Shown here one piece after another: positions 7,500-58,236 of a stretch of 64,000 nucleotides of DNA. The DNA lies in NCBI GenBank assembly GCA_024697065.1, contig JAILGE010000009.1, positions 1 to 64,000 of the forward strand, read 5' to 3'. The notes under the pieces were generated by a model. The model saw only the letters and a list, made by a program, of their open reading frames with translations. It was not told the origin of the DNA and did not search any database. The translations under genes and the position numbers were made by a program. Positions within the stretch are counted from its first letter, which is position 1. Every line of letters starts with the position of its first letter. The stretch is from Lachnospiraceae bacterium. Its GTDB lineage: Bacteria > Bacillota > Clostridia > Lachnospirales > Lachnospiraceae.

Positions 7500-7560
7500 A
7501 CTTGTCACCTTCCCCTTGATAAACATCTTATCAAGCTTGGGAGGTGGGTGACAAATACCC

Positions 7561-9112
7561 TAACTCAGAGGGTGTTCCATCCCAGTTATAATATAAAAAT
7601 CTTCTTCCATTTGGCGAAATTTTAGTCTTTTCATTTTCGATATATTTTTCATCCACGATTTTACCACTAAAAATAGAAATCCATATATCTCTTAAGTATT
7701 CATAAGACATTTCTTTATCAGAAACAGTGAAATCGTGAGATTCACGAGCGTTTTTTATAAGAAAAATCGAGTTTTGATTTTAATTATTATATCCGTGATC
7801 GGCCAAAATCACAATAGTTGATTGATCATAAATGCCATTCTCTTTTAATTCTTCAAAGTAATGTTTTAATATTTCATTATTTCCTGCAGCTTCATCATAC
7901 GATGTGTATCCTCTTTTAAATCCTTCCCAAAGGTTGAAGGGGCATGCACGCCGAAAATATGATAAAACTTAAAAAGATTACCGCTTCTACTAACAGATAG
8001 TCCTTGTTCCTCTAATCCTTCCGCAAATCGAATTACATCATAATGATGTGCAGGATATTCAAGATCAGACTTCCTTAAATCGTTTATTTCCTCTGTATCA
8101 ACCAAAAAGTACTTTTTTAATTGGTGAGGCATGTAATTAAACAATACCAAATCACCCATCTTTTCAGCGAATTCGGAATAATCACTTATAAAATATGTTC
8201 CATTTTCAACATTGCCGTATAATGAATTATCATTGCTCAAGAACATTGGCTGTTCATACATATCTATTGAAAATGCATTTGTTTCAAGTGTTTTATATAT
8301 GCTATTGTCAATGTATGCATTTTTAACATAGTCTTTGTACGGTTTCTCATTTTGATACCATTCACCGGTAAGAATAAACGGCATTGCACCTTTTGTAGTC
8401 GGATAACAGCCTAATGTATCCCTATAATAAGTAAAATTTTCAAAAATATTTTCTTGGTTTTCAGAATCATTTGTCAACAAATAATCAAAATCATCAGTGT
8501 CGTAAGCATCTAAATGAAACACAATAACATTATTGTCCTGTGATAATTCAAACATTCCCTTTTGTGTTGGGATATTAGAATTAAAATCTTTCTTCATGGT
8601 GACACCATTTTGTATCATCAATGTAGCAATAGTCACTACTTGTATTGAGATAATAAATACAGACAAATATTTTGCAACTGCTGGTAAATAGTTTGATGCT
8701 TTTAAAACAAATATGCATACTATCAGAATTCCTAATAAAAATAGCACAATACTTGCCGTTGCATATCCGGAGTACGCTCCCCAATCAACCGCCTCACCAT
8801 TTAAGACGCCATAATTTCTCGGAATATAATTACCCTGAATATATGAAATAATGAAAAAGCCAAAAATACAGCTAAAGCAATTGTATCCACTTTCGTCTTA
8901 CTCAAAAAGTATGCTGCTATACTCAATAAACATAATAGAATTATAAATTCTACAACACATACGGTTAGCAACTGTCCTAAAGAAAACCAAAATTCATCCA
9001 AATTTGCATACAATAACTCAATAGGTGCAAAAATGCAAAACATAAAGGCCATACCCAAATTTAACACAATCCAGGATTTAAACTTGTTATTATTCCGAAG
9101 CTCTTCTTGCAT
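7561..9112 (-). pseudogene. Membrane alkaline-phosphatase-superfamily protein, disrupted
   Basis: Pieces of one protein are spread over three frames. The start is 8,801-9,112 (MQEELRNNN..., two or three helices). A frame change near 8,870 leads to 7,866-8,747, with further helices followed by an external domain with VIVFHLDAYDTDDFDYL, GCYPTTKGAMPFILTGEW and HIFGVHAPS. A second shift near 7,920 and an in-frame TAA near 7,779 follow; beyond them ILADHGYNN and FLIKNARESHDF can still be read down to the IS end. The layout matches sulfatase/LTA-synthase-like phosphotransferases that decorate surface glycans. Two frameshifts, a nonsense codon and the adjacent IS mean it is dead. The IS may have removed the original 3' end. 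Confidence 0.85.
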
Positions 9113-14000: not shown

Positions 14001-15203
14001 CTAATTTACCTCGGTAGGGATGTATATCATTCCATCAAACTCGGGCATAACCTTATCAGACACCACCTCAAAAGACAAGGCATTTTCCTTCCAGAAAAAA
14101 ATATCCACCGGCGTAGCTCTATCCTCAGCGCAAGCAACCGTTAACGTATACTTACCACACCCTAAATTGATTGGAAACCTGTACGTACATTTTAGCTTAT
14201 TATCATGAAAGCAAATTGATTTATTAAGCCAATGCGTATTTGTACCATATAGTATCTCTCCAAGTTTATTTCTCACCTGTATCCCCACACAACAATCGGA
14301 TATGGTTTGACTTGTCATTTCAATCACAAGATTACACGTTTCACATGTTTTCCAGATACTTTTTTCAATTCCGGACTCATCTGACATATAACACTTATCT
14401 AGAATAACATTACCAATCCCAAATTCAACCCGCTCTGATGACTGTGACACTGTAGTTTGTGTTTGTGCCTTCTCATAGCGAAGTGCCTGGTACATATCTA
14501 ACACAGTTTTAGGATTACTCTCCGCGACAACCTGCCCCTTGTTTATCAAAATCGCTCTATCACAAAACCCCAAAATAGGCCCCGGATCATGGGAAACCAT
14601 AACGATTGTTGCCCCGGATGCCTTCATCTCTTTTAATCGAGCATAGCACTTCTGTTGAAAAAAGACATCTCCAACAGATAAAGCTTCATCTACAATATAT
14701 ATGTCCGGGTCAAGGCAAGCATAAAGCGAAAATGCCAGTCTTACATACATTCCCGAAGAATATGTTTTCACAGGCAAATGTGCATATTCCCCTATATCTG
14801 CAAATTCCAAAATGCTATCTATTTTACTCGATACTTCTGAGTGCGGAAATCCAAGCATCTCTGCACTATGATATATATTCTCTATTCCTGTCAATTCCGG
14901 ACCAAAACCGGTCCCAAGCTCCAACAATGAAAGAATTCTGCCTTTAACAGAAATAGAACCATCCGTTGGACACAGAGTTCCACAGATCAACTTTAAAAGT
15001 GTACTTTTTCCGGCACCGTTTTCACCGACTATTCCAACAGCTTCTCCCTTTTTTATTGATATGTTGATATTCTTCAACGCCCAGTAGTCATCATGAAGCT
15101 TTTTACGGCACAACGGCTCCAGCAGCCTGTAAAACGGCTTTTTATATACTTTGAAGCGTTTTGAAATATCCTTTATTTCAATTACATTTAATGATTCTTC
15201 CAT
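14001..15203 (-). CDS. wzt: ABC transporter ATP-binding protein, Wzt/TagH type with glycan-binding C-terminus
   Basis: 400 residues. The ATPase lies at about 5-245: Walker A GENGAGKST near 58, signature YSSGMYVRLAFSL, and Walker B with IVDEALSVGDVFFQQK. This is the polysaccharide/teichoic-acid export subfamily. The extra domain at about 250-400 matches the Wzt C-terminal fold (VEFGIGNVILD... through CVGIQVRNKLGEILYGTNT), which in O-antigen systems recognises the modified end of the finished chain. It powers export through the permease encoded just upstream. Presence of this domain implies that a chain-end modification, perhaps methylation, is read before export. Confidence 0.92.
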   Translation of the reverse strand: MEESLNVIEIKDISKRFKVYKKPFYRLLEPLCRKKLHDDYWALKNINISIKKGEAVGIVGENGAGKSTLLKLICGTLCPTDGSISVKGRILSLLELGTGFGPELTGIENIYHSAEMLGFPHSEVSSKIDSILEFADIGEYAHLPVKTYSSGMYVRLAFSLYACLDPDIYIVDEALSVGDVFFQQKCYARLKEMKASGATIVMVSHDPGPILGFCDRAILINKGQVVAESNPKTVLDMYQALRYEKAQTQTTVSQSSERVEFGIGNVILDKCYMSDESGIEKSIWKTCETCNLVIEMTSQTISDCCVGIQVRNKLGEILYGTNTHWLNKSICFHDNKLKCTYRFPINLGCGKYTLTVACAEDRATPVDIFFWKENALSFEVVSDKVMPEFDGMIYIPTEVN

Positions 15204-15204
15204 A

Positions 15205-15990
15205 CTATATTAAATCCCTTATATCTGATCGAGAGAAGTGTGTCGTAATGCATCCTATAACAAAACACGGAACAGCAAAAAAACACATTTTTATCATATC
15301 TGAATAGTCCGGCATCCCACCAAAAACTATTATCTGTTGAAGTGCATGAATGAAAGGATAGGCAATATTGAATTTCATTATAAACCTAAAATTCTCCGGT
15401 ATAATTTCAATGGCATAGACAATTGGAGTTGCCCACATCCATATAAGCATAAAAACATTTACGATATGCACGGTGTCTCGAAATACTGTGTTTATAGCAG
15501 CCAAAAACAATGCCAACCCGAAGCCCATCAGCAAAAATAAACAAAGAATAGGCAGAACAAAAAGCCAATTTAACGAAACCTTCCCCATAAGAATAAAGGC
15601 ATATACAAATATCAGGACATAATTTGTCAAGCAATTTAATAATGACGAACATGTCCTTTGCGCTACAAACACTTCAATTGGAATAGGCAATTTTTTAATG
15701 TATGTGCTGGATTCTATATATGTATTTGCGCCGCGAATTAAACATTCATTGAAGGATATCCAAGCAAATAAGCCTGAACAAAGATATAGTGAAAACCCCC
15801 CCGGGGTTTCAATGCCTGCCATCTTAGCACGCATTATGTTTGAAAAAACAAATGTATAGACAAGAATCTGTAGAATTGGATTGATCAGATTCCAGAAAAA
15901 GCCCAATGCTGAACCCGCATATCTGTATTTCAGTTCTCCAATTGCATTTCTAATAATGTATTTTTTGTAATTAAATAACGAACGTAGCAT
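15205..15990 (-). CDS. wzm: ABC-2 polysaccharide export permease, Wzm/TagG type
   Basis: 261 residues with six hydrophobic segments and the family start LRSLFNYKKYIIRNAIGELKYRYAGS followed by LGFFWNLINPILQ. Later ALFLAAINTVFRDTVHIV and WMWATPIVYAIEIIP are typical of ABC2_membrane polysaccharide permeases. It pairs with the ATPase 1 bp downstream to carry the lipid-linked polymer across the membrane. It overlaps the upstream GT2 gene by 20 bp, which points to a tightly packed operon. Confidence 0.92.
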   Translation of the reverse strand: MLRSLFNYKKYIIRNAIGELKYRYAGSALGFFWNLINPILQILVYTFVFSNIMRAKMAGIETPGGFSLYLCSGLFAWISFNECLIRGANTYIESSTYIKKLPIPIEVFVAQRTCSSLLNCLTNYVLIFVYAFILMGKVSLNWLFVLPILCLFLLMGFGLALFLAAINTVFRDTVHIVNVFMLIWMWATPIVYAIEIIPENFRFIMKFNIAYPFIHALQQIIVFGGMPDYSDMIKMCFFAVPCFVIGCITTHFSRSDIRDLI

Positions 15991-44668: not shown

Positions 44669-45808
44669 TTATTGTGCTAAGAACTTCATAAAGTTCTCTT
44701 TGTTCTCAAGAGCAGTTGTAGTAGGACGTCCGAGGTCATCACGTGCGCCAACCTGGCACTTGATCTCAATAAGTGAAAGTTCATTTTTATCCCTTGCTGC
44801 CTCAAGAGCCTTATCAAGATCATCATAATTGTCTACAGATACGGCATTTGGATATCCGCATGCCTTTGCGATGGCAGTCACATCCAGCGCACCTGCAACC
44901 GTAGGCATTCCGCCGACAGTCTCATGAGCGGAATTGTTGATGATGATATGAACCATATTTGAAGGGCGGTTTGCACCCGTTACGGCCATAGCTCCCATAT
45001 GCATGAGCATCGCTCCGTCTCCGTCGATGCACCATACTTTTCTGTCAGGCTTATTTACGGCTACGGCAAGAGCTATCGAGGAACAATGTCCCATGGAACC
45101 TACTGTCAGGAAATCTCTGCAATGCTTTGTATATGCATCCTCTCCCGCATTTTCGGGAAGCTCCCTGCTCTCGAAAAGCTCTCTGCTTATCTTACCTGTT
45201 GTGGATACCACAGGATCGTCACCTGTCACGCGGATTATGTGTCTGATGGCTTCCTCACGGTTCATGCTGTTATCATTGCCGTATTTAACTTTTCCTTCGA
45301 AGGAAAGTGCGCCCTTGCGGATCACGATGGCTACCTGCTTTCCTGCCGATAAGAGCTTTCCGAAATCCTTCATGGCCTCCAAAAGCTCTTCTTCCGTCGT
45401 ATCCTTTGAAAGAACAAATGTCTTTACATCCATATCTTCCATAAGCTTAACGGTAACTATACCCTGATAGATATGCTGAGGCTCGTCATGTACTCCCGGC
45501 TCGCCTCTCCATCCGATAACAAATATCGTGGGGATCGCATATACTTTGTCATTTAAAAGAGATGCCAGCGGATTGATGATATTTCCCTCGCCGCTGTTCT
45601 GCATATATACGACAGGCACTTTTCCGGTTGCAAGATTATATCCTGCCGCAAGTGCTGCCGCATTACCTTCATTGGCAGCAATGATATGATGCTTTGCATC
45701 AATGCCGTATCTGCTCATCAGATAGTTGCAGAGTGCTTTTAACTGTGAATCGGGCACTCCCGTATAGAAATCACTTCCGAGTATTTCCGTGAATTTTTCC
45801 GCTGTCAT
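44669..45808 (-). CDS. aepY: Phosphonopyruvate decarboxylase
   Basis: 379 residues of a ThDP enzyme. TGVPDSQLKALCNYLM at the start, AANEGNAAALAAGYNLATGKVPVVYMQNSGEGNIINPLASLL, and the ThDP-magnesium motif CIDGDGAMLMHMGAMAVTGANRP...NNSAHETVGG near residues 258-298 are those of AepY/Ppd. It decarboxylates phosphonopyruvate to phosphonoacetaldehyde, the irreversible pull behind the unfavourable PepM reaction. It is the last gene of the operon, with AAGGAG before the ATG. Confidence 0.95.
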   Translation of the reverse strand: MTAEKFTEILGSDFYTGVPDSQLKALCNYLMSRYGIDAKHHIIAANEGNAAALAAGYNLATGKVPVVYMQNSGEGNIINPLASLLNDKVYAIPTIFVIGWRGEPGVHDEPQHIYQGIVTVKLMEDMDVKTFVLSKDTTEEELLEAMKDFGKLLSAGKQVAIVIRKGALSFEGKVKYGNDNSMNREEAIRHIIRVTGDDPVVSTTGKISRELFESRELPENAGEDAYTKHCRDFLTVGSMGHCSSIALAVAVNKPDRKVWCIDGDGAMLMHMGAMAVTGANRPSNMVHIIINNSAHETVGGMPTVAGALDVTAIAKACGYPNAVSVDNYDDLDKALEAARDKNELSLIEIKCQVGARDDLGRPTTTALENKENFMKFLAQ

Positions 45809-45820
45809 TACATATTCTCC

Positions 45821-46573
45821 TTAATTCCATTTCTCATAATCGGGATCAACTGCCGCAAGCTCATCGCAGGAGTCGATCTCCGTTATCTCATTTTCTTTTA
45901 TGGGATGAACTGTCAGATCAAGCTTATCCAGATTGGCATTTACCACATCGTCCCAGAACAGATCTTCATATCCGGGCTTTCCGTAAGCTTCTATCATCGC
46001 ATCTTTTAATATCTTTGCGTCTTCCTTCCTGAAAAAGGAGATCCCGACCATATTATACACGTCTCTGCCCTGCTTGCCCACTCTGGTGATGCGTCCGTTT
46101 TCATCCTGCTCGAAGACCCAGTCATCGGAATATCCCTGTACCATTTTCCCGAAATAGCAGGATCTCTCCGTCTCCGTCATAAAGACCCCGGGATCCGGAA
46201 TATACAGATCCGCTTCGCAGATGAACATATCCGCTGAGCCAACGATACTCTCTCCATTTTCATCCTTCGTCATACATGCGGCATATATGGATGAAATATT
46301 ATTTATGGTCTCAAAGACCTCATTCTTTATGATCTTAAGCTCTGTTCCCGTTGCGGCATCGGTATACTTTTTAACCAACGGCTCAAACTGTTCTCCCTTG
46401 TAACCTGTCACCACATAGAATTTCTTCACACCTCTTGCGCGGAGTCCTTCTATAACGGTCTCTATCATTGCTTTTCCCTTTACTTTTACAAGGGGTTTTG
46501 CTGTCTTCTCCGTTAGGGGACGCATTCTGGTTCCCATTCCTGCTGCCATAAGTACAGCTATCTCTTCAGCCAT
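45821..46573 (-). CDS. pntC: LicC/PntC-like cytidylyltransferase (2-AEP activation)
   Basis: 250 residues. VLMAAGMGTRMRPLTEKTAKPLVKVKGKAMIE is the nucleotidyltransferase signature. NEVFETINNISSIYAACM, ICEADLYIPDP, and FWDDVVNANLDKLDLTVHPIKENEITEIDSCDELAAVD match choline-phosphate cytidylyltransferase LicC and its phosphonate relative PntC. In a PepM-AepY-PhnW operon without choline genes the best substrate is 2-aminoethylphosphonate, giving CMP-AEP. GGAGG precedes the ATG. If the acceptor were choline or ethanolamine phosphate the operon logic would not hold, so assay is needed to decide. Confidence 0.85.
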   Translation of the reverse strand: MAEEIAVLMAAGMGTRMRPLTEKTAKPLVKVKGKAMIETVIEGLRARGVKKFYVVTGYKGEQFEPLVKKYTDAATGTELKIIKNEVFETINNISSIYAACMTKDENGESIVGSADMFICEADLYIPDPGVFMTETERSCYFGKMVQGYSDDWVFEQDENGRITRVGKQGRDVYNMVGISFFRKEDAKILKDAMIEAYGKPGYEDLFWDDVVNANLDKLDLTVHPIKENEITEIDSCDELAAVDPDYEKWN

Positions 46574-46686: not shown

Positions 46687-49581
46687 TTATTTTCCCGCCG
46701 CATTATCCGCACCCAGATTGGTCCAGTTATCTTTATCCCATACATTCCCATGTACCGAATACCAGGCCGCATCGCCGGTGTCATATACATTACCTTTATT
46801 ATTTTCCAGTCTGTTATTATCGGAGGTCGTAACTATCTGATCATGCGCAGTCTTCTCTGTATCATCCAACGGATTCCCGGTAAAAGGATTCACCGGAGCT
46901 ACGATCACTCCCTCCGCTGCCAGCCAGGGCACATCAGCATTGGTCATGAATGAATCATCGGTCACAAGATCACCGTCACATTCAAAATCCTTAACCATAA
47001 GAAGAGGTGTCAGTGCCTCCGCATCATATCCGTCATTAAGGATCAGCTCGTCGAACTCACCCCTTCCGTCACCATGATCCGCTACGAGGATTATCCTGGT
47101 ATTGTCATATACACCTTCGGCTCTCAGCATATCGAACCAGTCTCCCAGACACATGAAGGAGCGCACGAGACTGAAGTATCTGTTCTCTGCATTAAATGAA
47201 TGATATGAAATGCCGTCGCCTGCTTCTACAGGATGAGCTCTGTACTCGTAATCCGGGAGCTGGAGATCGGCCTGCTCATGGGTCATGGCATTATAGATAT
47301 ATATAAAGTTACCCTCTGTTTCCACATCGGTGGTCAAATCAGGATCCGGGCTGTCTTTTGAACCTGTCTCAGATCCTTCATCCCGATACGAAGCGGCATC
47401 TGCCACTTCAGTCAGTTCCGAAAGATTCTCTATAACGGCATAATTATTGAGATATGCTCTCGGAAACTGGGTAAGAGACATATATTTTCCTCTGGAATAG
47501 ATCATGTTCTGAAGAGATACGGGCGCCGCTCTCATCACGCTGTACATGAAGAATCTCCAATATTCACCGCCCTTTGCCATCTCAACCTGAGCCTTTTCTT
47601 CTGATGTCAGGAGATGGAGATACTCACCGTTGATGGTGCTTACTGCTTTCACATTTTCCATACCGTCAAATACAGTAAGATCCGAAACATCACTGTATCC
47701 CGCATAGGGAGGATCTGTTACCGTAACCTTCCAGCCCGCGTCCGAGAAAAGCTCCGGCAGGACCTTTAAGGCTTCGTTCTGCTTCTCCTCAAGGGATTCG
47801 CCGTTTCTAAGGTTCATATTCACCGGAGTATATTCATATCCGCCGTAAGCAGGTGCCGATGCGAAGTTGGTATATATACCGAAGGAAAGCGTATTTGGAT
47901 AATAAGTAAATCCCTTAAACTTCTCCAGAAGCTCCGGCTTTTCATCAAATACAAACCTAACCTGCCCCGCGATGGAGCGGTCAAGCATTATCACGACTAC
48001 ATTTTTCTTATCCCTGCTCAAACTGAATATCTTATCCGTGCCGCCCTCATTTACCGCAGCCGAAGCATTTTTCAGTTCTTTTATCTGAGTGCCCGCTTTT
48101 CCGATATCACGTATTGCGATCACGAAAGCACCGAGAAGCATTGCCATTAATATAACCGACAATACCTTCTTTGACCGCCTATAGAGAGTCACGGTAACCA
48201 ATGCCGCAAATATAAGTGCCGATACATTTAAGAGTTGAGTGGATACCGCAAATCTGACGCCGTCCGAAAAAGTCATATCGGAATACATGACTCCGAAATC
48301 GCCGGAAAATACCATATAATCGATGACCGTAAATACTGCGATTAGCGCATATATTATACCCACCGTCTTCCTGTGCTCTGCGGGAGTCAGGGCATAAGCG
48401 ATACCTCCCCATACGAAGAAATAACCTATAGCAACGCAGGCTATGGTTCCAACATACCTGAGAGGATCCCTGAATGCAGCGATATCCGTGAAGTCCGCCG
48501 GCGATGAGGAGATCACCGCAAGAGGGATCAGCACGCCGAATACCATAACTGTAAGAAGTCCCGAAATCACCCACAGGCCAAAGACATTTTTACCTGAGGC
48601 TGCACCGGCACGATCGCCCTTCTCCTGTATTTCATCAGCAGCTTCTTTTCCGGCACGATCTGAATAATTTCGGCCGTCACTTGCATTATTAATACCCCCA
48701 TGCTTTGTGTTTATCCGCTTGGCACGAATTCTCATTACGAGCGGCAGCATGGCAGCCACGCTGATGGCAGCGATAAAGAGGATGTGTCCCATATCGGGAA
48801 CACGTCTGCCCTGCAGATCGTATTTCATCATCTTGCCGGTACATGTTCCCCAGATAAAGAAAGCAACACCCCCGATGGCGCACAATACTGACAGTATCCG
48901 TCCCGGGTTCTTAACCACCTTCATGAATACATTTTTCAAAAGGGAGAACAGATTATTCAGTGTCCAGTAGAATACAAGTCCCGAAGGGCAGGGATAGAGA
49001 AATACAAGAAAGATCAGCGCTATCACATAGAGCTGAAACTTATCCTTAAATGCAAATCCTTTCGTATAGATATATGAGGAAAGGAAATTGATGAGGGTCA
49101 TGAGTATCGGCAGGAGATTAACAGACAGTCCTCCGATATTGATGAGTCCGTCGGGTTTTGACAGATCCCCGATTACAAAAAAAGCACTCCCCTCAAGCAC
49201 GGGAAGCGTAGATAAATATCTGTATGCCGCTATAAGGAAAGGGATCTGGAGGATCAGGGATACGGAACCCTTCACTGCAGACAGTGGGGAATAATGCTGC
49301 TCCCTGTAATACGCCTGCTCTATCATGAAACGTTCATCGCCTGTAAAGAACTCCCTGATATGCGACAGCCAGGGCTTCATCGCCGCCTGCTTATCGCGCT
49401 CCGCCTCCTGCACGGCATCCGCCCGCTTGTACAGAGGAAGACAGAGTATATTTACGGTAAGACTCACGGCGATTATCGAAAGTCCCGGGTTATAACACAG
49501 GAGATAAACCGCCGAGAATATAGCCTGCACCAGATATACAAGCGGAAGTATTATGATGTCATACAATATGGTCAATATCAT
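46687..49581 (-). CDS. YidC/Oxa1-like domain fused to AlkP-superfamily phosphotransferase
   Basis: 964 residues. Residues 1-235 have the YidC/Oxa1 pattern: first helix ending NILCLPLYKRADAVQEAE, a charged cytoplasmic hairpin, then ILQIPFLIAAYRYLS, GDLSKPDGL, NLLPILMTLINFLSSYIY and FLYPCPSGLVFYWTLNNLFSLLKNV. Around 235-500 are seven or so further helices. Residues from about 526 form an outer alkaline phosphatase-superfamily domain: NVVVIMLDRS, TNFASAPAYGGYEYTP (nucleophile region), YHSFNAENRYFSLVRSFMCLGDWF, ILVADHGDGRGEF. LTA synthases and phosphoethanolamine transferases belong to this superfamily. The place in a phosphonate operon suggests transfer of a phospho- or phosphono-alcohol outside the cell. 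I know of no characterised protein with this architecture. Confidence 0.85.
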   Translation of the reverse strand: MILTILYDIIILPLVYLVQAIFSAVYLLCYNPGLSIIAVSLTVNILCLPLYKRADAVQEAERDKQAAMKPWLSHIREFFTGDERFMIEQAYYREQHYSPLSAVKGSVSLILQIPFLIAAYRYLSTLPVLEGSAFFVIGDLSKPDGLINIGGLSVNLLPILMTLINFLSSYIYTKGFAFKDKFQLYVIALIFLVFLYPCPSGLVFYWTLNNLFSLLKNVFMKVVKNPGRILSVLCAIGGVAFFIWGTCTGKMMKYDLQGRRVPDMGHILFIAAISVAAMLPLVMRIRAKRINTKHGGINNASDGRNYSDRAGKEAADEIQEKGDRAGAASGKNVFGLWVISGLLTVMVFGVLIPLAVISSSPADFTDIAAFRDPLRYVGTIACVAIGYFFVWGGIAYALTPAEHRKTVGIIYALIAVFTVIDYMVFSGDFGVMYSDMTFSDGVRFAVSTQLLNVSALIFAALVTVTLYRRSKKVLSVILMAMLLGAFVIAIRDIGKAGTQIKELKNASAAVNEGGTDKIFSLSRDKKNVVVIMLDRSIAGQVRFVFDEKPELLEKFKGFTYYPNTLSFGIYTNFASAPAYGGYEYTPVNMNLRNGESLEEKQNEALKVLPELFSDAGWKVTVTDPPYAGYSDVSDLTVFDGMENVKAVSTINGEYLHLLTSEEKAQVEMAKGGEYWRFFMYSVMRAAPVSLQNMIYSRGKYMSLTQFPRAYLNNYAVIENLSELTEVADAASYRDEGSETGSKDSPDPDLTTDVETEGNFIYIYNAMTHEQADLQLPDYEYRAHPVEAGDGISYHSFNAENRYFSLVRSFMCLGDWFDMLRAEGVYDNTRIILVADHGDGRGEFDELILNDGYDAEALTPLLMVKDFECDGDLVTDDSFMTNADVPWLAAEGVIVAPVNPFTGNPLDDTEKTAHDQIVTTSDNNRLENNKGNVYDTGDAAWYSVHGNVWDKDNWTNLGADNAAGK

Positions 49582-49594
49582 CTCATATAACAGC

Positions 49595-50890
49595 TTACAG
49601 CTCGTCGATCAGTCTGATGATATCCTTGAAGGGCATCAGCTTGGAATCAACTTCAAGTGCGCGATGATTCTTTAAGATCTCCTCTGCTGTGGAAACCATA
49701 ACAGGGAAAGCAGCACGCATGAGCTGGTTAGCGTAGATCACTATATTTACACCGTGAGAAGAAAGCTCCTCTTCCGTTACGGAATTAAAGGAAGTGGGAA
49801 CTACTACTATCGGTGTATGCTTATCGAGTTCGCGGAATTTGTCACAGAATTCAAAGATCTCTGCCGGATCCTTCTTCCTGGAATGGATCATGATACCGTC
49901 AGCACCTGCGGCAACGAATGCAACCGCTCTCTCAAGCGCATCCTTCATACCCTGTTCAAGGATGAGGCTCTCGATACGTGCGATGATCATGAAATCATCC
50001 GTAAGCTGGGCATGCTTACCTGCAGCTATCTTTGCGGAGAAATTCTCGATGGAATCCTGAGTCTGCTTTACTTCCGTTCCGAAAAGAGAATTCTTCTTAA
50101 GGCCTACCTTATCCTCGATTATGACTGCGGATACACCGCTTCTCTCAAGCGTGCGGACATTGTAAACAAAATGCTCCGCAAGTCCGCCTGTATCTCCGTC
50201 AAGGATGATGGGCTTGGTAGTAACTTCAAGGATATCATCGATGGTACGCATACGGCTTGTCATATCAACAAGCTCGATATCCGGCTTGCCTCTGTCCGTG
50301 CTGTCGCAAAGTGAGCTTACCCACATACCGTCAAACTGATCAAGACGGCCGGCGCTCTCGACAACTGTCTTCTCACAGATAAGACCCGTAAGTCCGCTGT
50401 GTGCCTCCATGATCTTGACCACAGGACGCATCTCTATAAGCTGTCTGAGTCTCTTTCTCCTGTACTCAGGCATGGCAAGCTTCTCATTGAGCTGTCTGTC
50501 GATCTTCTTAACCTTCTCGTTGCGGGTATAAGGAACTTCTACAAGTTCGCCGCCCTTTTCCTTAAGAAGGGAAAGTACGCTTTCACGGATAGCGCTCTCG
50601 GGACCTTCCTTCCAGTTATCACCATGGATGATGATATCGGGATGAACCTTCTCGAAGACATCGCTGTATCTCATATCCTCCTGGATGATGACCTCGTCAA
50701 CTCCGGGGATAGCCTTATAAAGAGCTACTCTCTCTTCGATGGTCTCGGTAGGGAATTTGTTATATCTGATGGACTCGGGTATACTGAGGGCTCCTACCAC
50801 AACGCGTCCCAGCTTTCCGGCTTCATTTATGATATTGAGGTGACCTTCGTGGATCACATCTGTTGTAAAACAGGTATAAACTGTTTTCAT
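49595..50890 (-). CDS. pepM: Phosphoenolpyruvate mutase with N-terminal nucleotidyltransferase-like domain
   Basis: 431 residues. Residues 1-135 are a TagD-like cytidylyltransferase fold with H14-E-G-H17 (TDVIHEGHLNIINEAGKLG). The second catalytic motif, normally ISST-x-x-R/L after VPYT, is replaced by RNEKVKK at about 123-129, so nucleotidyl transfer is doubtful. Residues from about 153 form the isocitrate-lyase-type PEP mutase: ILDGDTGG (229-236) and the diagnostic EDKVGLKKNS (259-268). It turns phosphoenolpyruvate into phosphonopyruvate, the entry to all C-P bond synthesis. TAAGGAG precedes the ATG. Confidence 0.95.
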   Translation of the reverse strand: MKTVYTCFTTDVIHEGHLNIINEAGKLGRVVVGALSIPESIRYNKFPTETIEERVALYKAIPGVDEVIIQEDMRYSDVFEKVHPDIIIHGDNWKEGPESAIRESVLSLLKEKGGELVEVPYTRNEKVKKIDRQLNEKLAMPEYRRKRLRQLIEMRPVVKIMEAHSGLTGLICEKTVVESAGRLDQFDGMWVSSLCDSTDRGKPDIELVDMTSRMRTIDDILEVTTKPIILDGDTGGLAEHFVYNVRTLERSGVSAVIIEDKVGLKKNSLFGTEVKQTQDSIENFSAKIAAGKHAQLTDDFMIIARIESLILEQGMKDALERAVAFVAAGADGIMIHSRKKDPAEIFEFCDKFRELDKHTPIVVVPTSFNSVTEEELSSHGVNIVIYANQLMRAAFPVMVSTAEEILKNHRALEVDSKLMPFKDIIRLIDEL

Positions 50891-50909: not shown

Positions 50910-52289
50910 TTATTTTTCAGCCTCAGGCTTATCCTTCTCAACAGCCTTTTTCTTACCGCTCTTTCCTGCAGCTTTCTTTGCTTCCTCTTCCTTAGCCTTG
51001 CGCTCTTCTTCTTTCTGCTTTGCTATCTCTTCGCCCTTCTCAATCATATAATCGGCGATCTTCTCGGAAGCGGATCCTATATTCTGCCAGGTTTCCTTCC
51101 TTGCTTTTTCTCTTGCTGCGGAGAACTTCTCGGAGGCAATGGCTTCGTCGATTATAGCCTTAACATTGCCGATGTCATCCTTCTTGAGAGGAGTGCCGAT
51201 CTCCGGAAGCTTTCTGATCATCCAGGGCTCCTCTTCAAGCCAGCAGCAGTCATATACGTCACGGTTGTAACCTACTCCCATATCCGTGAATACGAGAGGC
51301 TTATCAAATACAAGTGTGTAGTCGTAGATAACACCGGAGAAATCCGAGATCATGATATCCGAATTCTTAAGTACGGAGAAGTTATCATTATCGAAGTTCC
51401 AGTGGAAGGAATCGTTCTCGGGGAATTCCTTCATCAGCTTATCCATCAGATCCTTCTCGGATGTCATGGACTGGGGATGAGGACGGACAACGATGTTGTA
51501 ACCCGTAGCCTTCAGTGCTTCAAGCATCTCAGGTCCCAGAGTGGTAAGCAGTCCGCTGGGTCCCCATGCCGGAGCAAGGAGTACGGTAGGAACATCTCTT
51601 CCCTCGGCGTAGCTTCCTGCCTTCTTCTCTTCCTTACCTTCTTTATCCAGTCTCTCCTTCATGACATCAAGGTAGGGAACGCCTGCCATGGGCAGTTCCT
51701 TTTTGGTGATGCCACGGAGTTCTTCCAGCTTTCTCAGCTCATCCTTCATGAAATCGCCTGCGATAAATACCGCATCATAGAAATCAAGACCGAACATTCT
51801 GTACATGGTAGGATCGCCTGCTGCATGAAGCACGTGAACATACCAGTCAACATTCTTGGAACGCTTCCACTGATATACATCAAGACCGGGGGTCGTTGAA
51901 AGGAGCACGCCGGCCTTTGCGAAATTAAGTCTTGTAAAAGCCTTGTTTCCCTCACCGATGAATTCGGCAGTCACATATTCATACTTTTCCTCAAGTGCCG
52001 GATCATCCGGAGAAGCTGTCCAGTATGTGATCTTCTGCTTTCTCTTCTCAAAAGCATCACAGATGGGCTTGAAGGTATTCCAGTATCTCTTTGAATCCGA
52101 AAAGATAAGGAAAGGAATCTTCTCAGCCGCCGCTGCCGCCGCTTTATCCGCACGTCCGCCGCTTAATGCGAACTTTATCTTAAGGATAACTTTCTGCACG
52201 AAGAATACCAGTGCGGCAAAGATACCGATAAGTATGGAGAAAAGCATGCTTCCCGTTCCGGGATCAATGTATAAAAGTGTTCTCATCAT
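50910..52289 (-). CDS. CDP-alcohol phosphotransferase-like protein (TagB/TagF GT-B fold)
   Basis: 459 residues. An N-terminal hydrophobic helix (YIDPGTGSMLFSILIGIFAALVFFVQKVIL) anchors it. The rest follows the TagB/TagF glycerophosphotransferase fold: LNFAKAGVLLSTTPGLDVYQWKRS, VLLAPAWGPSGLLTTLG, VRPHPQSM with the catalytic histidine region, and SDIMISDFSGVIYDYTLVFDKPLVF (UDP/CDP-binding end). The last 40 residues are almost all Lys, Glu and Ala. Known relatives use CDP-glycerol or CDP-ribitol. Here it may use CMP-AEP to place phosphonate on a glycan or lipid. Two adjacent ATGs follow AAGGAG. Confidence 0.82.
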   Translation of the reverse strand: MMRTLLYIDPGTGSMLFSILIGIFAALVFFVQKVILKIKFALSGGRADKAAAAAAEKIPFLIFSDSKRYWNTFKPICDAFEKRKQKITYWTASPDDPALEEKYEYVTAEFIGEGNKAFTRLNFAKAGVLLSTTPGLDVYQWKRSKNVDWYVHVLHAAGDPTMYRMFGLDFYDAVFIAGDFMKDELRKLEELRGITKKELPMAGVPYLDVMKERLDKEGKEEKKAGSYAEGRDVPTVLLAPAWGPSGLLTTLGPEMLEALKATGYNIVVRPHPQSMTSEKDLMDKLMKEFPENDSFHWNFDNDNFSVLKNSDIMISDFSGVIYDYTLVFDKPLVFTDMGVGYNRDVYDCCWLEEEPWMIRKLPEIGTPLKKDDIGNVKAIIDEAIASEKFSAAREKARKETWQNIGSASEKIADYMIEKGEEIAKQKEEERKAKEEEAKKAAGKSGKKKAVEKDKPEAEK

Positions 52290-52300
52290 CTGCTCCTTGA

Positions 52301-53446
52301 TTAATTTTTATATACTGCGGGTATCGCTGCTCCCGCATCTTTCATAGCATCTTCAAAGACTTTCCAGAATGCCTTGATGTCTTCCTCATCTATTGCACCG
52401 AGTGCACAGAGTCTGAAGGTTCCTCTGCCCTGCATCTTGCCGGGATAGATGGTAAAGCCTCTCTCATAGCAGTAATCATGGATCTTCTCGAAATCCCAGT
52501 TTGCATCATCCGGATATCTGATGGCTGCAACCAGCCCCGACTGGATATCACGAGGCAGAGCTTCCTTAAGTCCAAGATCATCAATTCCCTTCCTGATGGC
52601 ATTCATCACACGGGTATGTCTCGCCCACTTAGCGCTTTCTCCCTCTTCCCAGTATTCCTTAAGGGCCTGTCTGGCGGCATAGATGGTCTGAACGGGCGGT
52701 GTGAAATTCATCTCTCCCGTCTCTTCAAAATAAGCATACTGTCTGTAAAGATTGCAATAGTAGGAATGTGTGGGGAAATCCTTTGACTTCTCAATGATAT
52801 CGCGCCTTCCGATCACATATGAAAGTCCCGTCATACCCATGATACCCTTCTGGGCCGAAGCCATGCAGAAGTCAATATTGTCATCATAGACATTTATGGG
52901 GATCATGGCATATGAAGATGTCGTATCGGTAATGAAAAACGCTCCGTACTTATGAGCAAGCGCCCCCACTTCCCTGACAGGATTCAGAAGACCTGTTCCC
53001 GTCTCGTGATGAGTCATGTAAATGTAGCCTATCTCATCACCGTCGGCAGCCGCCTTCTTAAGTGCATCTTCCACGATGCTCACATCAAGAGCCTTATCAA
53101 CCGGAGACTCCACCTTTATATAGGGAAGTCCGTAGTAATCAAGCACCTCACAGGCTCTGGAAGAATAAGATCCGTTCTTTACCACCATAGCCTTCTTGCC
53201 CTTATCAAGCAGGGAATTTAATGTGATATCGATACAGATCGTTCCCGATCCGCAGAAAAGCACGGATGTATATTCCTTCGTATCTCCGTGCACGATCTTT
53301 ACCAGATCATCACGCATAGGCGCCATGATACCGGCGAATTCCTTCTCTCTCGGGCAGATGTCCGGCACGATCTGAGCGTATTTAACGGTATCCGTTGTGG
53401 TGGACGGTCCCGGATTCAACAATATATTTCTCTTTACTTCCTGCAT
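52301..53446 (-). CDS. phnW: 2-aminoethylphosphonate-pyruvate transaminase
   Basis: About 381 residues of a class V aminotransferase. ILLNPGPSTTTDTVKYAQIVPDICPREKEF is the PhnW/AepZ start, FCGSGTICIDITLN binds PLP phosphate, TDTTSSYAMIPI and ASAQKGIMGMTGLSYVIGRR hold the PLP lysine, and RLCALGAI closes the fold. In a biosynthetic operon it runs toward 2-aminoethylphosphonate from phosphonoacetaldehyde. The frame is open to 53,485, but GGAGG seven bases before the ATG at 53,446 marks the start. It is first in the operon. Confidence 0.93.
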   Translation of the reverse strand: MQEVKRNILLNPGPSTTTDTVKYAQIVPDICPREKEFAGIMAPMRDDLVKIVHGDTKEYTSVLFCGSGTICIDITLNSLLDKGKKAMVVKNGSYSSRACEVLDYYGLPYIKVESPVDKALDVSIVEDALKKAAADGDEIGYIYMTHHETGTGLLNPVREVGALAHKYGAFFITDTTSSYAMIPINVYDDNIDFCMASAQKGIMGMTGLSYVIGRRDIIEKSKDFPTHSYYCNLYRQYAYFEETGEMNFTPPVQTIYAARQALKEYWEEGESAKWARHTRVMNAIRKGIDDLGLKEALPRDIQSGLVAAIRYPDDANWDFEKIHDYCYERGFTIYPGKMQGRGTFRLCALGAIDEEDIKAFWKVFEDAMKDAGAAIPAVYKN

Positions 53447-53624
53447 GATCATTCCTCCATGCGCTTTATTTGTGTTTGGGCACACACTTGATAATTTTAT
53501 CCTTAATAGAGTTATTTTTCAAGCTGACCGGGGCGGGGGGGCCAAAATGCATCCCCTGCCGGCCCTGCTGTGGCCTGCTGAACTGTGGAATCACTTGCCT
53601 GCCCACCCAATCATATGTCATTAT
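53447..53624. other. Divergent intergenic region with an unusually GC-rich block
   Basis: Between phnW (minus) and the serpin (plus). Bases 53,447-53,525 are AT-rich and could hold the phnW promoter. From about 53,527 to 53,600 the composition becomes GC-rich with a run of seven G and several CCTGC repeats. Frames here have no match that I recognise. The block may be a leftover of whatever removed the upstream serpin copy. Confidence 0.4.
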
Positions 53625-53753: not shown

Positions 53754-55043
53754 ATGAAAAAGAGGAAAATCATATTTGCGCTTTTTTCACTTACAATGCT
53801 TGGTGGTTGCGGACCGGCCGCAAAATCTTACTCGCCCCCACTATTAAGCAGCCATATCATATCTACTGATGCAGAAACTCTCCCCGCTCCGGAAGGCGCA
53901 ATAGAAGACTCGGCCGTGGATGCCATGTCTGATTTTTCCCTTAAGTTGTTTACGGATACTTTAAATAAATACAGCGATCAAGATAATATCCTAATATCTC
54001 CCACATCAACCCTGCTTGCTTTGGGTATGGCACAAAACGGCGCCGTCGGTGATACGCTGGATCAGATGGAGATCGTATTAAATGGCGGGCTCTCAATAGA
54101 AGAGATGAATCCAGCTTATTACGACCTATCTAATCGTCTTGAATCTTCCGAAGATGTAAAGTGGAATATCGCCAATTCCATTTGGTATAAAGATGACGGT
54201 AATTTTACACCCAAATCTGAATTCATACTGAAAGCACGCGATTGGTATGGAGCCGGATTATTTTCATCCCCCTTTGATGACAATACTTTAACAGACATCA
54301 ACAACTGGGCATCAAATGAAACTTCCGGAATGATCCCTAAGATCCTCTCCAATATTCCGACCGACGCAAGCGTATATCTTATCAATGCCATAGCTTTCGA
54401 AGGAGAATGGGATTTAGAATACGGTGATTCTGAAATCCTTGAGAATTATCATTTTTCCAATGCAGACGGAAGCAATCCGACAGTTACTATGCTTAAAAGC
54501 GGAGAAATAAATTATTTCCATCTCGGTGAGGGCATCGGTTTCCTGCGGCCTTATAAAGGTAATCAGTACTCATTCTTCGCTATACTTCCTGATGAGGGTA
54601 TAAGTACTGCGGATTATATTTTAGGATTAAACAATGACGGTGCTGCTCTTTCCAACGCATTAAGAAATCCATCGCACCAACAAGTAGAAGTACTCATTCC
54701 CGAGTTCTCTGTAGATTTTGAAACTGAAATGAGCAATACTCTTACGGATATGGGAATGGATCTTCCCTTTAATAAGTACCGGGCAGATTTCAGCAATATG
54801 GCTGACTTCAACAATACGCCAGACACCCTTTTTTATATCAGCAACATGATCCAGAAAACCCACCTGGAACTAGATCGAAAGGGAACCCGTGCCGTTGTTG
54901 TTACATCAGAAGAAATGGACTGCATGCCTGTTTCAATAGAACCCGACCCCATCTTTATCTATCTTGATCGTCCCTTTGTATACGGTATCGTAGATAACGA
55001 AACAGGGCTCCCTATTTTCATCGGATGCATGAATAATATGTAA
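53754..55043 (+). CDS. Serpin-family protease inhibitor, predicted lipoprotein
   Basis: 429 residues. A lipobox, TMLGGC with C19, follows a basic start and short hydrophobic core, so it is probably surface-anchored. The serpin fold is complete: DNILISPTSTLLALGMAQNGAVGDTL, NIANSIWYKD, INNWASNETSGMIPKIL, LINAIAFEGEWD and the C-terminal LDRPFVYGIVDNETGLPIFIG. The reactive-centre hinge reads RKGTRAVVVTSEE instead of the inhibitory consensus EEGTEAAAAT, and the loop contains MDCMPV. Bulky valines at P11-P9 may slow loop insertion, so inhibition is likely but not certain. It might guard cell-surface enzymes from host or rival proteases. Confidence 0.93.
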   Translation: MKKRKIIFALFSLTMLGGCGPAAKSYSPPLLSSHIISTDAETLPAPEGAIEDSAVDAMSDFSLKLFTDTLNKYSDQDNILISPTSTLLALGMAQNGAVGDTLDQMEIVLNGGLSIEEMNPAYYDLSNRLESSEDVKWNIANSIWYKDDGNFTPKSEFILKARDWYGAGLFSSPFDDNTLTDINNWASNETSGMIPKILSNIPTDASVYLINAIAFEGEWDLEYGDSEILENYHFSNADGSNPTVTMLKSGEINYFHLGEGIGFLRPYKGNQYSFFAILPDEGISTADYILGLNNDGAALSNALRNPSHQQVEVLIPEFSVDFETEMSNTLTDMGMDLPFNKYRADFSNMADFNNTPDTLFYISNMIQKTHLELDRKGTRAVVVTSEEMDCMPVSIEPDPIFIYLDRPFVYGIVDNETGLPIFIGCMNNM

Positions 55044-55125: not shown

Positions 55126-58100
55126 TTACGAGATCGGTACATACACAGGTTTGCCCGATGCATCATAGAGTACTCTCATCTGAGGATTTCCCCATGCATC
55201 GTAGAGATATTCCGGTGCGGCAGGCGATACTGCCGGCGAATCAGAAGCAACCGAAGCAGAATATTCATTCGGCCCGGCGGGCGATACCGCCGGCGATTGT
55301 GAAGCATCAGGTGCAGGATATGCATCAGGTGCGGCAGTCTCCGGGTCATAGAATTCGATAACCGAAGCAGGTTTATCAGCTGCTGCGGCAGGTGTAGTCT
55401 CCGGTGCGGCAGCTTCTGTTGCAGGTGCCACATAAGGTGTATCCACTTCCGAGTCGTCGACTTCTACAGCCGCCTTCTCCAGCGTCTGTGCCCCATCGGA
55501 GTTCATATTCCCGTAATCAAGCTTTATTCCCTGAGCCGTGGCCGCATCCTGCTTCTTCATCTGCATTATCTTGTAGATCAATATCTCTATGGAAACGATA
55601 ACTGCTACCGCTCCAAAAACTATAAGTGCGATGAGCCATCCGCTCATGGGCTTTTTTCCTTCCATGCTGCCCGATGAGCCAACGCCGGCGCCACCGGCTC
55701 CGGAAGCATTGACGTCTGACGATCCCGCAGCAGTATTGGTAACATTGGCGCTCCCCGGATCTGAAGCCGCACTTAAGTTAACGGCTCCCTGTATTATACC
55801 GTCCTTAGAATTCTCCGTTATAAACCCGGTAAGCCATGCGAGAGGTGCATTCCAGTTGATGGTACATTCATTGGCGGAATATGCTTCTATATGATCCAGA
55901 TAACATTTGGCGGGAGGGATCGTTCCCTTCTTCCATCCCATACCTTTGACCCAGGGATCTTCCATTCCGCTGTTAGGGCCACCCACCATTACGCCATTTG
56001 GTGCCAGCGGGAAGCTGTCATCTATGAGCCCCGCCCAGTAACGATGATGAGGATATTTTGCGGCATGGGTTCCGTATCCCGTTACATACGAATAGTCATT
56101 CGCATTTCTTCCCAGGAGATAATCCATCGCCGATACCGCACCGTTTAAATATTTTGCATCATCGCTCAATATATATGCATATGCGATCACAATGGCATTA
56201 TCCGCAACAAATGAATTGGATCCCCACAGATATCCCTGCGCGCTATCGGTATTTGAAAGGGTTCCTCCGGAATAAGGCAGTCCGTAACCCTGCTCATTTT
56301 CCTTTTCGATAAATCTGTCGGCAGCTACCAATACAGCATCCTTTGCCTTGCTCACATCACCCGCATCAACCTTGTCTTCATTTAAGAGAACGGAAAGAGT
56401 TCCAAGGGATGCCGTATGTCCCCAGTCAAAGCATCCGTAAGTATCAACGCTTTCTCCGCCGGACAGTGTCGTCTGAACCTGCATGAAGAAGGGTGAAGCC
56501 TTCATATCGTTGTAATATGTATCATCTCCTGTGGTGATATACAGCTCCGTTGCAGCCCAGTAGAACTCGTCCGTCACATCATCATCACCATAGGAACCGC
56601 CTCCCGGGAAATTACCCGTAGGTGCGTACATATCGGGATGAGCCTTTGCAGCAGCATAAGTTCTCTTTGCGATATCAAGACACTGTTCGGAATAAGCATC
56701 ATCTATTCCTGCCCATAAGCGCGAAGCCTGCGCCGCACATGCAGCCACATTAAGAGTAGCCGCCGTTGTTGGAGGGAGTATAACCCTCTTCATCGTATCG
56801 TCTGCAGGTGCAAGAGCAAGTCCCGTCCACTTCTCATCATGGACTTTGTGATAGACCATATCCTTGCATTCGCCGTCCTTCACAAGCATGGTGCCAAACC
56901 AGTCCATCTCCCATCTGGCTTCATCCAGAAGATCAGGGTCACCGTTATTATTCTCCGGTATATTCATCGTTCCATCGGCATATGCGGATTCGTTGCCTGT
57001 CTTTAAAGCAGTCTCATACTGATTCTGCAGAAGCCATAATGATATTCCGCCGTTTACGACATATTTGCCGTGATCGCCCGCATCATACCATCCGCCTGTA
57101 ACATCCTGAGAGCCGCTTGTGGCCTGATCCGTGAAGCTTGTTCTTATCTCGGCAACATCCGAAGGATGACCTGCCGCACGTGCAAGTCCGTTCTTATCAC
57201 CCGATGTGATGAATTGACTCTCAATGGCTATCGCAGATCTGTTCTGATAGAAATAATTCAGTGAATCGTATAAAAGAGCTGAATAGGTCTGTGAATCTCC
57301 TATGGCGAACTCTCTTGATACAGCTCCGTTGTCAGCCTTTAAAGTGTATTTACCCTTCTCATTAAAATCCGAGAAATCAAGAACATGAACATTATCTCCT
57401 GAGTCGGCATCCAGTCCCATTGGTTCGGACTTCCCGCTCCAGACTTCCTTACCGCTTTCATCCACAAGAGAAAAACCTACAGCAGACTTGCTGTCGGAAA
57501 GAAGGGTTGCTTTCTTTGCCATATCTTCAAAATATCCCACCTGATTCGTAAGGATATCTGAACGCACCCATGCCGGCTCTTCTACATAATCATTTTCATT
57601 CGAAGTCTCATCGAAAAGAGACATGTTATCGAACTCTATGACAGTTCCCGCGGGAAAGCATACACCGTTCGTATACTGACCGTCACCGCCAAGGTGGAAA
57701 GCCCACTCAGCCACATCAAGACTCTGTCCCGCAGTAAAAGTAAGATCCACAGTCTTCCACTGTCCGGCAGTATCATAGGGAATGGGATCCCAGGTAGCAC
57801 CCAGATCTGAGCCGTTGCTCATATTGTGCCAGACTTCCACATCGCCTGCGAGATTACCTATCTTCGTATAGTACTTTCCGGTATTAGATGCTTTGATCTC
57901 GTAATGCACATGATATGTATGGCCAGCTACTATCTTCAGACCTCTGTGTCTAAACTGGCAGTCCCATCTGTCATCGCCGCCATTGGAAGCTCCGCCGGGA
58001 TTAACTATGGTGATCCTGTAGACACCGTCCGCGATCTCGAATTCCATCTTGCCGGTCTCTGATTCCATGATATGCCACGGAAGGCCTCTTCCGTCGTCAA

Positions 58101-58236
58101 AATCCGTTGCTCCCAGCTGTTCACCTGCGAAGGTATAAACAGGCTTTGAAAATGCTGTTGTCGCGCCTCCGAAAACAGATCCTGCAGTCAGCACTCCCGA
58201 AAGAACTAATCCACTGATTCTTCTGCTCTTTTTCAT
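55126..58236 (-). CDS. GH9 cellulase with N-terminal CBM, C-terminal membrane anchor and long tail
   Basis: 1,036 residues. Signal peptide 1-31; CBM4/9-like domain about 38-215 (GGDDRWDCQFRHRGLKIVAGHTY); Ig-like CelD_N domain about 228-312 (ILTNQVGYFEDMAKKATLL); GH9 catalytic domain about 322-810. The last carries GGWYDAGDHGKYVVNGG (catalytic Asp pair), PHHRYW and EAYSANECTINWNAPLAW with the acid glutamate. After a Gly/Ser linker a helix at about 865-890 with positive residues after it anchors the protein with the enzyme outside. The tail of about 144 residues would be cytoplasmic, rich in Ala and Pro, ending with two YDA-x-G-x-P units. It probably attacks beta-1,4-glucan at the cell surface. 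Confidence 0.95.
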   Translation of the reverse strand: MKKSRRISGLVLSGVLTAGSVFGGATTAFSKPVYTFAGEQLGATDFDDGRGLPWHIMESETGKMEFEIADGVYRITIVNPGGASNGGDDRWDCQFRHRGLKIVAGHTYHVHYEIKASNTGKYYTKIGNLAGDVEVWHNMSNGSDLGATWDPIPYDTAGQWKTVDLTFTAGQSLDVAEWAFHLGGDGQYTNGVCFPAGTVIEFDNMSLFDETSNENDYVEEPAWVRSDILTNQVGYFEDMAKKATLLSDSKSAVGFSLVDESGKEVWSGKSEPMGLDADSGDNVHVLDFSDFNEKGKYTLKADNGAVSREFAIGDSQTYSALLYDSLNYFYQNRSAIAIESQFITSGDKNGLARAAGHPSDVAEIRTSFTDQATSGSQDVTGGWYDAGDHGKYVVNGGISLWLLQNQYETALKTGNESAYADGTMNIPENNNGDPDLLDEARWEMDWFGTMLVKDGECKDMVYHKVHDEKWTGLALAPADDTMKRVILPPTTAATLNVAACAAQASRLWAGIDDAYSEQCLDIAKRTYAAAKAHPDMYAPTGNFPGGGSYGDDDVTDEFYWAATELYITTGDDTYYNDMKASPFFMQVQTTLSGGESVDTYGCFDWGHTASLGTLSVLLNEDKVDAGDVSKAKDAVLVAADRFIEKENEQGYGLPYSGGTLSNTDSAQGYLWGSNSFVADNAIVIAYAYILSDDAKYLNGAVSAMDYLLGRNANDYSYVTGYGTHAAKYPHHRYWAGLIDDSFPLAPNGVMVGGPNSGMEDPWVKGMGWKKGTIPPAKCYLDHIEAYSANECTINWNAPLAWLTGFITENSKDGIIQGAVNLSAASDPGSANVTNTAAGSSDVNASGAGGAGVGSSGSMEGKKPMSGWLIALIVFGAVAVIVSIEILIYKIMQMKKQDAATAQGIKLDYGNMNSDGAQTLEKAAVEVDDSEVDTPYVAPATEAAAPETTPAAAADKPASVIEFYDPETAAPDAYPAPDASQSPAVSPAGPNEYSASVASDSPAVSPAAPEYLYDAWGNPQMRVLYDASGKPVYVPIS

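Follow-up and report, generated by a model that had tools for sequence, protein, structure and literature searches.

We analysed a 64,000-nucleotide stretch of DNA from a Lachnospiraceae bacterium (assembly GCA_024697065.1, contig JAILGE010000009.1, positions 1 to 64,000; hereafter, the window) and found that one gene of its phosphonate operon, at 46687-49581, encodes a YidC/Oxa1 domain fused to an AlkP-superfamily domain. In the family to which this fusion belongs, the commonest partner is a membrane-anchored TagF-like transferase, and in related systems a YidC domain is fused to the TagF-like protein instead. We propose, with a probability of about 0.45, that the fusion protein forms the outer half of a module for delivering headgroups across the membrane, which would operate through a lipid-linked intermediate. 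Window features are on the minus strand unless stated otherwise.

Architecture and conservation of the YidC-AlkP fusion

The fusion gene is a single uninterrupted open reading frame (ORF) that starts with ATG and encodes 964 amino acids. Its N-terminal part was matched by PF02096 (60KD_IMP) at residues 33-221 (48919-49485; E 3e-24, 86.3 bits against a cut-off of 35) and by TIGR03592 (yidC_oxa1_cterm; 85.9 bits against a cut-off of 84.3), and its top sequence matches in the PDB are solved YidC proteins (3wo7, 5mg3, 4utq and others). Judged from its sequence, this part is a member of the YidC/Oxa1 family, carrying the same domain as the insertases but here fused to an enzyme. The AlkP-superfamily domain, which was assigned by fold and profile searches, occupies residues 520-964 (46690-48024). 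An AlphaFold2 model built from a 90-row family alignment (predicted local distance difference test score, 89.5; predicted TM-score, 0.87) retrieved MCR-1 as the top solved match in Foldseek, together with phosphonate monoester hydrolases, PbgA and LtaP/LtaS (E from 1.5e-6); the whole-query TM-scores are low (0.20-0.26) because a single domain was matched. The Pfam Sulfatase model (PF00884) reached residues 810-862 at 17.7 bits, below its cut-off of 25, which was passed by one of the four fusions of the same genome (a paralogue, 26.6 bits).

Twelve membrane helices, with the AlkP domain outside the cell, are predicted from hydropathy and charge counts: the inner loops hold 23 Lys and Arg residues, versus seven in the outer loops, with helix limits set by ourselves. 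Five of these segments belong to the YidC domain, for which the model helices and the positive-inside count predict a five-transmembrane core with its N-terminus outside. Two more lie at residues about 228-287, and the last five, at residues 336-519 (48025-48576), directly precede the AlkP domain and are predicted from hydropathy, the positive-inside count and the model helices.

All of the candidate active-site residues are invariant in the 90 aligned members of the family. These are D534 (47980-47982, within VVVIMLDRS) and D835-H836 (47074-47079, within VADHGDG) as candidate metal ligands, T571 (47869-47871, within IYTNFASAPAYGGY) as the candidate nucleophile and H768 (47278-47280) as a candidate active-site His; K864, D865 and D883 are likewise invariant. 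In the profile search, the DH motifs of a solved phosphonate monoester hydrolase and of a sulfatase both aligned with D835-H836, and D534 was paired, where the alignment is weak, with an Asp of phosphonate monoester hydrolase 2w8s. Thr is the nucleophile of LtaS and EptA. The C-terminal part is thus predicted to have the AlkP-superfamily fold with a candidate metal-site Asp, nucleophile and DH motif. The original prediction, which had been made from the DNA sequence alone, stood well in these respects: the two domains are in one protein, the three motifs it had named hold the residues given above, the N-terminus is YidC-like in profile searches, the C-terminal part resembles LtaS/EptA enzymes in fold, and a conserved Thr nucleophile candidate is accompanied by candidate metal ligands.

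The protein resembles LtaS, EptA and MCR in having membrane helices followed by a predicted extracytoplasmic AlkP domain with a DH motif and a candidate Thr nucleophile. It differs from them in its N-terminal YidC domain, its 12 predicted helices and its TagF-like partner, and no LtaS or EptA family was among its NCBIfam matches. Mean conservation is highest in the YidC part (0.66), followed by the AlkP domain (0.54) and the remaining transmembrane part (0.425), which speaks against the YidC part being a mere anchor. The 90-row alignment used in these comparisons omits one of the 91 complete ORFs (L087:1141-3825, the same gene as L071:15342-18026).

At the groove position in the first transmembrane helix of the YidC domain, the 90 fusions have Asn (72), Ser (15), Gln (2) or Thr (1), and seven unfused relatives have Tyr, Asn or Lys. 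The solved 3wo7 chain has Arg there, which we take to be the groove residue; the unfused YidC proteins of loci L010 and L123-L127 have Tyr or Asn. We considered the missing Arg as a sign of lost insertase function and rejected this idea, because the seven aligned unfused YidC proteins also lack it.

The genome that contains the window (2.69 Mb, 44 contigs) encodes, in addition to its four YidC-AlkP fusions, one unfused YidC and one LtaS-like protein without a YidC domain. To survey the family, species genomes were scanned with the transmembrane and AlkP parts as the query, leaving out the YidC part, and the best 80 of 487 confirmed relatives were kept, so that the counts below concern the part of the family most similar to the query. 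These relatives gave 79 loci, which together with the window and three paralogue stretches make 83. An ORF with both domains was found in 82 of them, the remaining one (L076) being cut by the contig start; therefore, the fusion is neither an assembly artefact nor a chance one. Counts over 81 loci omit L022 and L051, which were removed by an ORF overlap filter and both hold intact fusions. Within this set, YidC is present in 100 of the 105 AlkP-domain ORFs; of the five without it, four are truncated by contig starts and the fifth is the latter half of a frameshifted gene. The fusion gene of L050 is broken by a frameshift. The YidC-AlkP fusion is thus near-obligate within the examined family. 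The loci are not fully independent: L071 and L087 overlap, L089 comes from the same contig, and L108 and L099, whose contigs match those of L024 and L086 in length, are probably the same stretches as these two, respectively. The record titles include Clostridia, Lachnospiraceae, Oscillospiraceae, Coriobacteriaceae, Treponema and others, with one Actinomycetes, and the isolate names of most loci point to the rumen or gut.

L084 and L092 have four AlkP ORFs apiece, of which one in either locus is truncated by the contig start, and L046 and L019 have three; in such loci the fusions often stand side by side. In L007, a fusion paralogue lies between genes for a family-2 glycosyltransferase and a GtrII-like glucosyltransferase (L007:7426-12758). 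We found no description of YidC fused to AlkP or TagF in the open-access library that was searched, with subscription papers and domain-architecture databases unsearched; the fusion may be listed somewhere as a domain architecture.

The TagF-like partner and variable headgroup genes

The window operon encodes, in order, a PhnW-type 2-aminoethylphosphonate aminotransferase (52301-53485; TIGR03301, 418 bits against 360.8), a TagF-like protein (50910-52289), phosphoenolpyruvate mutase (PepM) with an N-terminal cytidylyltransferase-like domain (49595-50890; TIGR02320, 413.2 against 319.55, and PF01467, 40.5 against 21), the fusion protein, a LicC/PntC-like nucleotidyltransferase (45821-46573; PF00483, 46.1 bits, and PF12804, 42.5 bits, both above cut-off) and the phosphonopyruvate decarboxylase Ppd (44669-45808; TIGR03297, 448.9 bits against 312.5). 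This phosphonate operon therefore contains two different cytidylyltransferase-type domains, one fused to PepM (49595-50890) and one separate (45821-46573).

The TagF-like protein was matched by PF04464 (44.5 bits against 22.1), and the top fold match of its model is TagF with CDP-glycerol; its sequence matches in the PDB are Cps3D and TarL. It shares these features with TagB, TagF and TarL, the CDP-glycerol and CDP-ribitol transferases, but differs from them in having an N-terminal membrane helix, LLYIDPGTGSMLF, and the motif YIDPGTGSMLF. The neighbouring genes suggest that it uses a CDP- or CMP-activated donor, and the choline or phosphonate genes that accompany it make it unlikely to be a chain polymerase in those operons. 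Such a protein is encoded in 51 of the 81 loci. In 44 loci, its gene is directly adjacent to the fusion on the same strand (33 before and 11 after), and the gap in 42 of these 44 pairs is -90 to +33 nucleotides. The two also occur together across genomes. Among 120 genomes sampled from the same bacterial family, the fusion was found in six and the TagF-like protein (>600 bits) in seven, including all six (Fisher's exact test, 1.9e-9, uncorrected for kinship). In the seventh (G052), a divergent YidC-AlkP fusion lies two genes after TagF, the gene between them encoding a TagD-like cytidylyltransferase. Fusion and TagF-like protein were found in the same three of the 398 genomes sampled from the phylum, a search that scored no more than the top three or four candidates of each genome. 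In locus L098 (9614-13777), genes for a TagF-like protein, a TagD-like cytidylyltransferase and a divergent YidC-AlkP fusion stand in a row, which suggests a glycerol-phosphate version of the system.

An activation or headgroup gene lies within six genes of the fusion in 32 of the 81 loci, as judged by bit-score limits of our own choosing: LicC/PntC-like genes in 23, choline kinase in 15, PepM in seven and nucleoside triphosphate (NTP) transferase-aminotransferase fusions in seven. LicB-like transporters are encoded in 10 loci and BCCT transporters in four. The headgroup sets vary, from choline kinase, LicC and LicB, through PepM, Ppd and PhnW or PepM, Ppd and iron alcohol dehydrogenase, to the NTP transferase-aminotransferase fusions and the TagD-like cytidylyltransferase. 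An iron alcohol dehydrogenase next to PepM and Ppd points to hydroxyethylphosphonate; this enzyme is encoded in four of the 81 loci, the case in L007 being probably due to chance.

All seven of the PepM loci, which include the window, also have TagF, and pepM accompanies the fusion in three more loci from the genome samples (L100, L101 and L103). In the family sample, pepM was above cut-off in 12 of the 120 genomes, four of which are among the six with a fusion (Fisher's exact test, 8e-4). The original prediction had expected the fusion to recur beside pepM. It does so in these loci, but its commonest partner proved to be the TagF-like protein. A wide occurrence without any link to phosphonate or teichoic-type genes, which would have spoken against the prediction, was not seen. 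We considered the fusion as a phosphonate-specific device and rejected this as too narrow in view of the neighbouring genes. The proposed role of the YidC domain in handling a lipid or substrate is still the best reading, but its phosphonate-centred form is not.

On one side, the operon adjoins a serpin gene on the opposite strand (53754-55043, plus strand; E 1.3e-69), whose start looks lipoprotein-like by eye. A family 9 glycoside hydrolase with CBM_4_9 and CelD_N domains is encoded at 55126-58236 and has, by eye, a C-terminal membrane segment. The window also contains a glycan locus with a Wzm/Wzt-like polysaccharide ABC exporter that has a Wzt C-terminal domain (14001-15990); this locus could supply the acceptor.

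Rearranged relatives

In three genomes (G022, G051 and G086), which first appeared as weaker TagF matches in the family sample (188-195 bits), YidC and PF04464 are combined in one ORF, both above the Pfam cut-offs. A fusion of YidC to the TagF-like partner had not figured in the original prediction. The TagF part of this swapped fusion aligns with the partner TagF (E 3.7e-38). In two of the three genomes, a separate membrane AlkP gene lies next to the YidC-TagF gene, and the third sequence ends there with its contig. The AlkP protein of L141 aligns with the fused AlkP (E 1.6e-14), with a Thr of this separate protein (L141:5067-6722) aligning to T571; that of L142 scores 19.9 bits, short of the Pfam cut-off. 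A scan of 388 phylum genomes at E up to 1e-60 yielded no further YidC-TagF form and returned G494 with the TagF part only. The operon of G494 encodes PepM, Ppd, PntC-like, PhnW-like and TagF-like proteins and two AlkP proteins, and in G431, of the same genus, the end of a TagF gene is followed by an AlkP gene; a YidC domain was found in neither. AlkP proteins of this type are distant from the fused AlkP (E 1.4e-4, probability 52) and gave no match to the family hidden Markov model at E up to 10. They are therefore evidence for a TagF/AlkP pairing in phosphonate operons, not for descent of one and the same AlkP.

In a phylogenetic tree of YidC domains, from which L067 and L122 were omitted, those fused to AlkP form one group and those fused to TagF another (100/99), and the former are also separate from the unfused YidC proteins of related genomes (100/99 in a 30-row tree). 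A constraint placing both fusion types in one clade was neither rejected nor supported (approximately unbiased test, p 0.352).

The window has, at 7866-9112, fragments whose likeness to the separate AlkP of the YidC-TagF systems was judged by eye; they are shortened and lie in two frames, and the larger one has no Pfam match. They adjoin pieces of an IS3-type transposase (6214-6771, rve; 6993-7526, HTH_Tnp_1) in a region of glycan genes.

A proposed route for headgroup delivery and its alternatives

The link of one activated headgroup to a pair of transferase-type enzymes, one at each face of the membrane, suggests a carrier within reach of both, and a membrane lipid would be the simplest. AlkP transferases of the EptA/LtaS kind draw headgroups from glycerolipids. 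Escherichia coli YidC, in liposomes, and yeast Oxa1 and Get1 scramble lipids in vitro, according to PMC10491306. Combining this activity with the predicted positions of the two enzymes leads to a model of loading inside, movement by the YidC-like domain and transfer outside. In the window operon, 2-aminoethylphosphonate would be made and activated as its cytidine monophosphate (CMP) ester, the enzyme families being evident and the substrate being the likely one; choline and other headgroups are apparently activated in the same manner in the sister operons. The membrane-anchored TagF-like enzyme would then load the activated headgroup onto a membrane lipid on the cytoplasmic side, most likely diacylglycerol and possibly polyprenol, and the YidC-like domain would provide a polar route by which this lipid, once loaded, reaches the outer leaflet. 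There, as its fold and invariant residues suggest, the AlkP domain may take the headgroup from the lipid onto T571 and hand it over to a polymer at the cell surface, which would free the carrier. Once attached, choline and aminoethylphosphonate offer no free hydroxyl from which a chain could grow, which points to decoration rather than polymerisation in the operons concerned. We further suggest, more tentatively, that the YidC/Oxa1 fold was recruited as a lipid flip-path from a TagF-like enzyme to an AlkP enzyme, one that can be fused to either and serves interchangeable headgroups. These would be choline and aminoethylphosphonate, and probably also hydroxyethylphosphonate and glycerol. The papers searched describe no membrane relay of this kind.

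This route has an analogue in the three-component Gtr-like glycosylation systems, in which (see PMC8035078 and PMC11127046) a cytoplasmic loader, a membrane flip and an outside transferase act in turn. The difference is that a phospho- or phosphono-headgroup would take the place of the sugar and a YidC-like domain that of the flip component; no GtrA, GtrB or GtrC family was detected among the six proteins of the window operon. The route also shares with Lic/LicD and Pnt tailoring the LicC/PntC-type cytidylyl activation of phosphocholine or aminoethylphosphonate, as set out in PMC6697681. The window operon differs from those systems in having TagF-like and AlkP proteins and no LicD (PF04991) among its six proteins. 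The two LicD matches of the genome are on other contigs.

Several observations weigh against the proposed route. No YidC was among the first 50 Foldseek rows for the whole model, the YidC assignment coming from sequence profiles. By sequence, the fused AlkP domain is not close to LtaS: just a stretch holding the DH motif gave an alignment to the LtaS-like protein that this genome encodes (E 0.032). The fusions of G004 are not on the contig that carries its TagF/pepM operon. No marker was present within six genes of the fusion in 24 of the 81 loci, and a 25th, L007, has just the probably unrelated iron alcohol dehydrogenase. Some of these loci (L008, L023 and L024) adjoin genes for YfhO, a bacterial sugar transferase and a GT87 match that is below threshold, and others run out close to a contig end; loci so poor in markers may serve other purposes. 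Eight of the 12 pepM genomes had no fusion in the profile search, one of them (G052) having the divergent form. The TagF-AlkP pairs of G494 and G431 indicate that YidC is not indispensable to such a pair, and the two YidC fusion types may have one origin or two. Domain architecture, invariant residues, gene neighbourhoods, co-occurrence and rearrangements are what we observe; the donor, acceptor, lipid carrier and flip, and with them the lipid-linked intermediate, are what we infer. Finally, LicD, the known transferase, lies two genes after the fusion/TagF/PepM operon in G365 and directly precedes the fusion in G437, so that the TagF/AlkP pair need not route the phosphonate there; both transfer systems may serve one operon.

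In two genomes, LicD genes adjoining the fusion module have the coordinates L100:16389-17237 and L101:7900-8691. LicD is also within about 8 kb of pepM in G087, G029, G046 and G052, at pepM loci without the fusion module. A search covering 16 genomes, rather than the 81 loci, detected LicD in 14. We considered TagF and the fusion as a strict replacement of LicD and rejected this idea, because LicD is present in these 14 genomes and adjoins the module in G365 and G437.

The LicD genes beside the module in G365 and G437 also speak for a different division of labour, which we nevertheless regard as rather unlikely. The TagF-like enzyme would decorate a lipid-linked glycan precursor in the cytoplasm, as LicD-like enzymes may do, and the YidC-AlkP protein would carry out a separate step outside, attaching, exchanging or trimming headgroups with a phospholipid donor in the style of EptA or LtaS. 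PF04464 enzymes act on lipid-linked polymer precursors, the top match of the TagF-like model is TagF itself, and the AlkP fold search favours MCR-1/LtaS types, all of which agree with this scheme. Against it stands the need for two separate transfers, given that the genes are closely coupled and occur together in three of three genomes of the phylum sample and in six of seven of the family sample, or seven of seven when the divergent form is counted.

The two other alternatives concern one domain each. The YidC domain may be a private chaperone that merely inserts or folds the attached enzyme, in keeping with the established insertase and chaperone activities of YidC and with the seven additional predicted membrane helices of the fused enzyme. 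We consider this improbable, since in the swapped form YidC is carried by a TagF-like domain that itself has no need of membrane insertion and the AlkP protein stands without it, as does the LtaS-like protein of the window's genome. Moreover, an unfused YidC is present in eight of the nine fusion genomes (one with an internal stop), the ninth being 84% complete. The AlkP domain could instead be a hydrolase that works outside the cell and cleaves sulfate, phosphonate esters or headgroups so as to scavenge or edit them; this appears very unlikely, even though phosphonate monoester hydrolases and sulfatases are among its best fold and profile matches. C/S-x-P-x-R is the nucleophile signature of formylglycine sulfatases, and this string was found in just two of the 90 AlkP parts, whereas the candidate Thr nucleophile is present in all 90; furthermore, the gene is linked to genes for activation and synthesis.

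In its abstract, PMC6697681 describes the tailoring that follows C-P bond formation as enigmatic. The paper then characterises the activation step, in which PntC enzymes form CMP-aminoethylphosphonate, and its abstract and sections 7 and 10 name as neighbours for later steps only LicD-like proteins or glycosyltransferases. A term search of its main text returned no YidC, no sulfatase and one mention of LicD. The module described here supplies concrete candidates for the phosphonate transfer steps and ties phosphonate and phosphocholine decoration to one machinery. If true, the proposed relay would be a phospho- and phosphono-counterpart of three-component glycosylation and would introduce a lipid-linked intermediate into phosphonate tailoring. 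It would also suggest a natural role for the reported lipid scrambling by insertases, an idea that thereby becomes directly testable.

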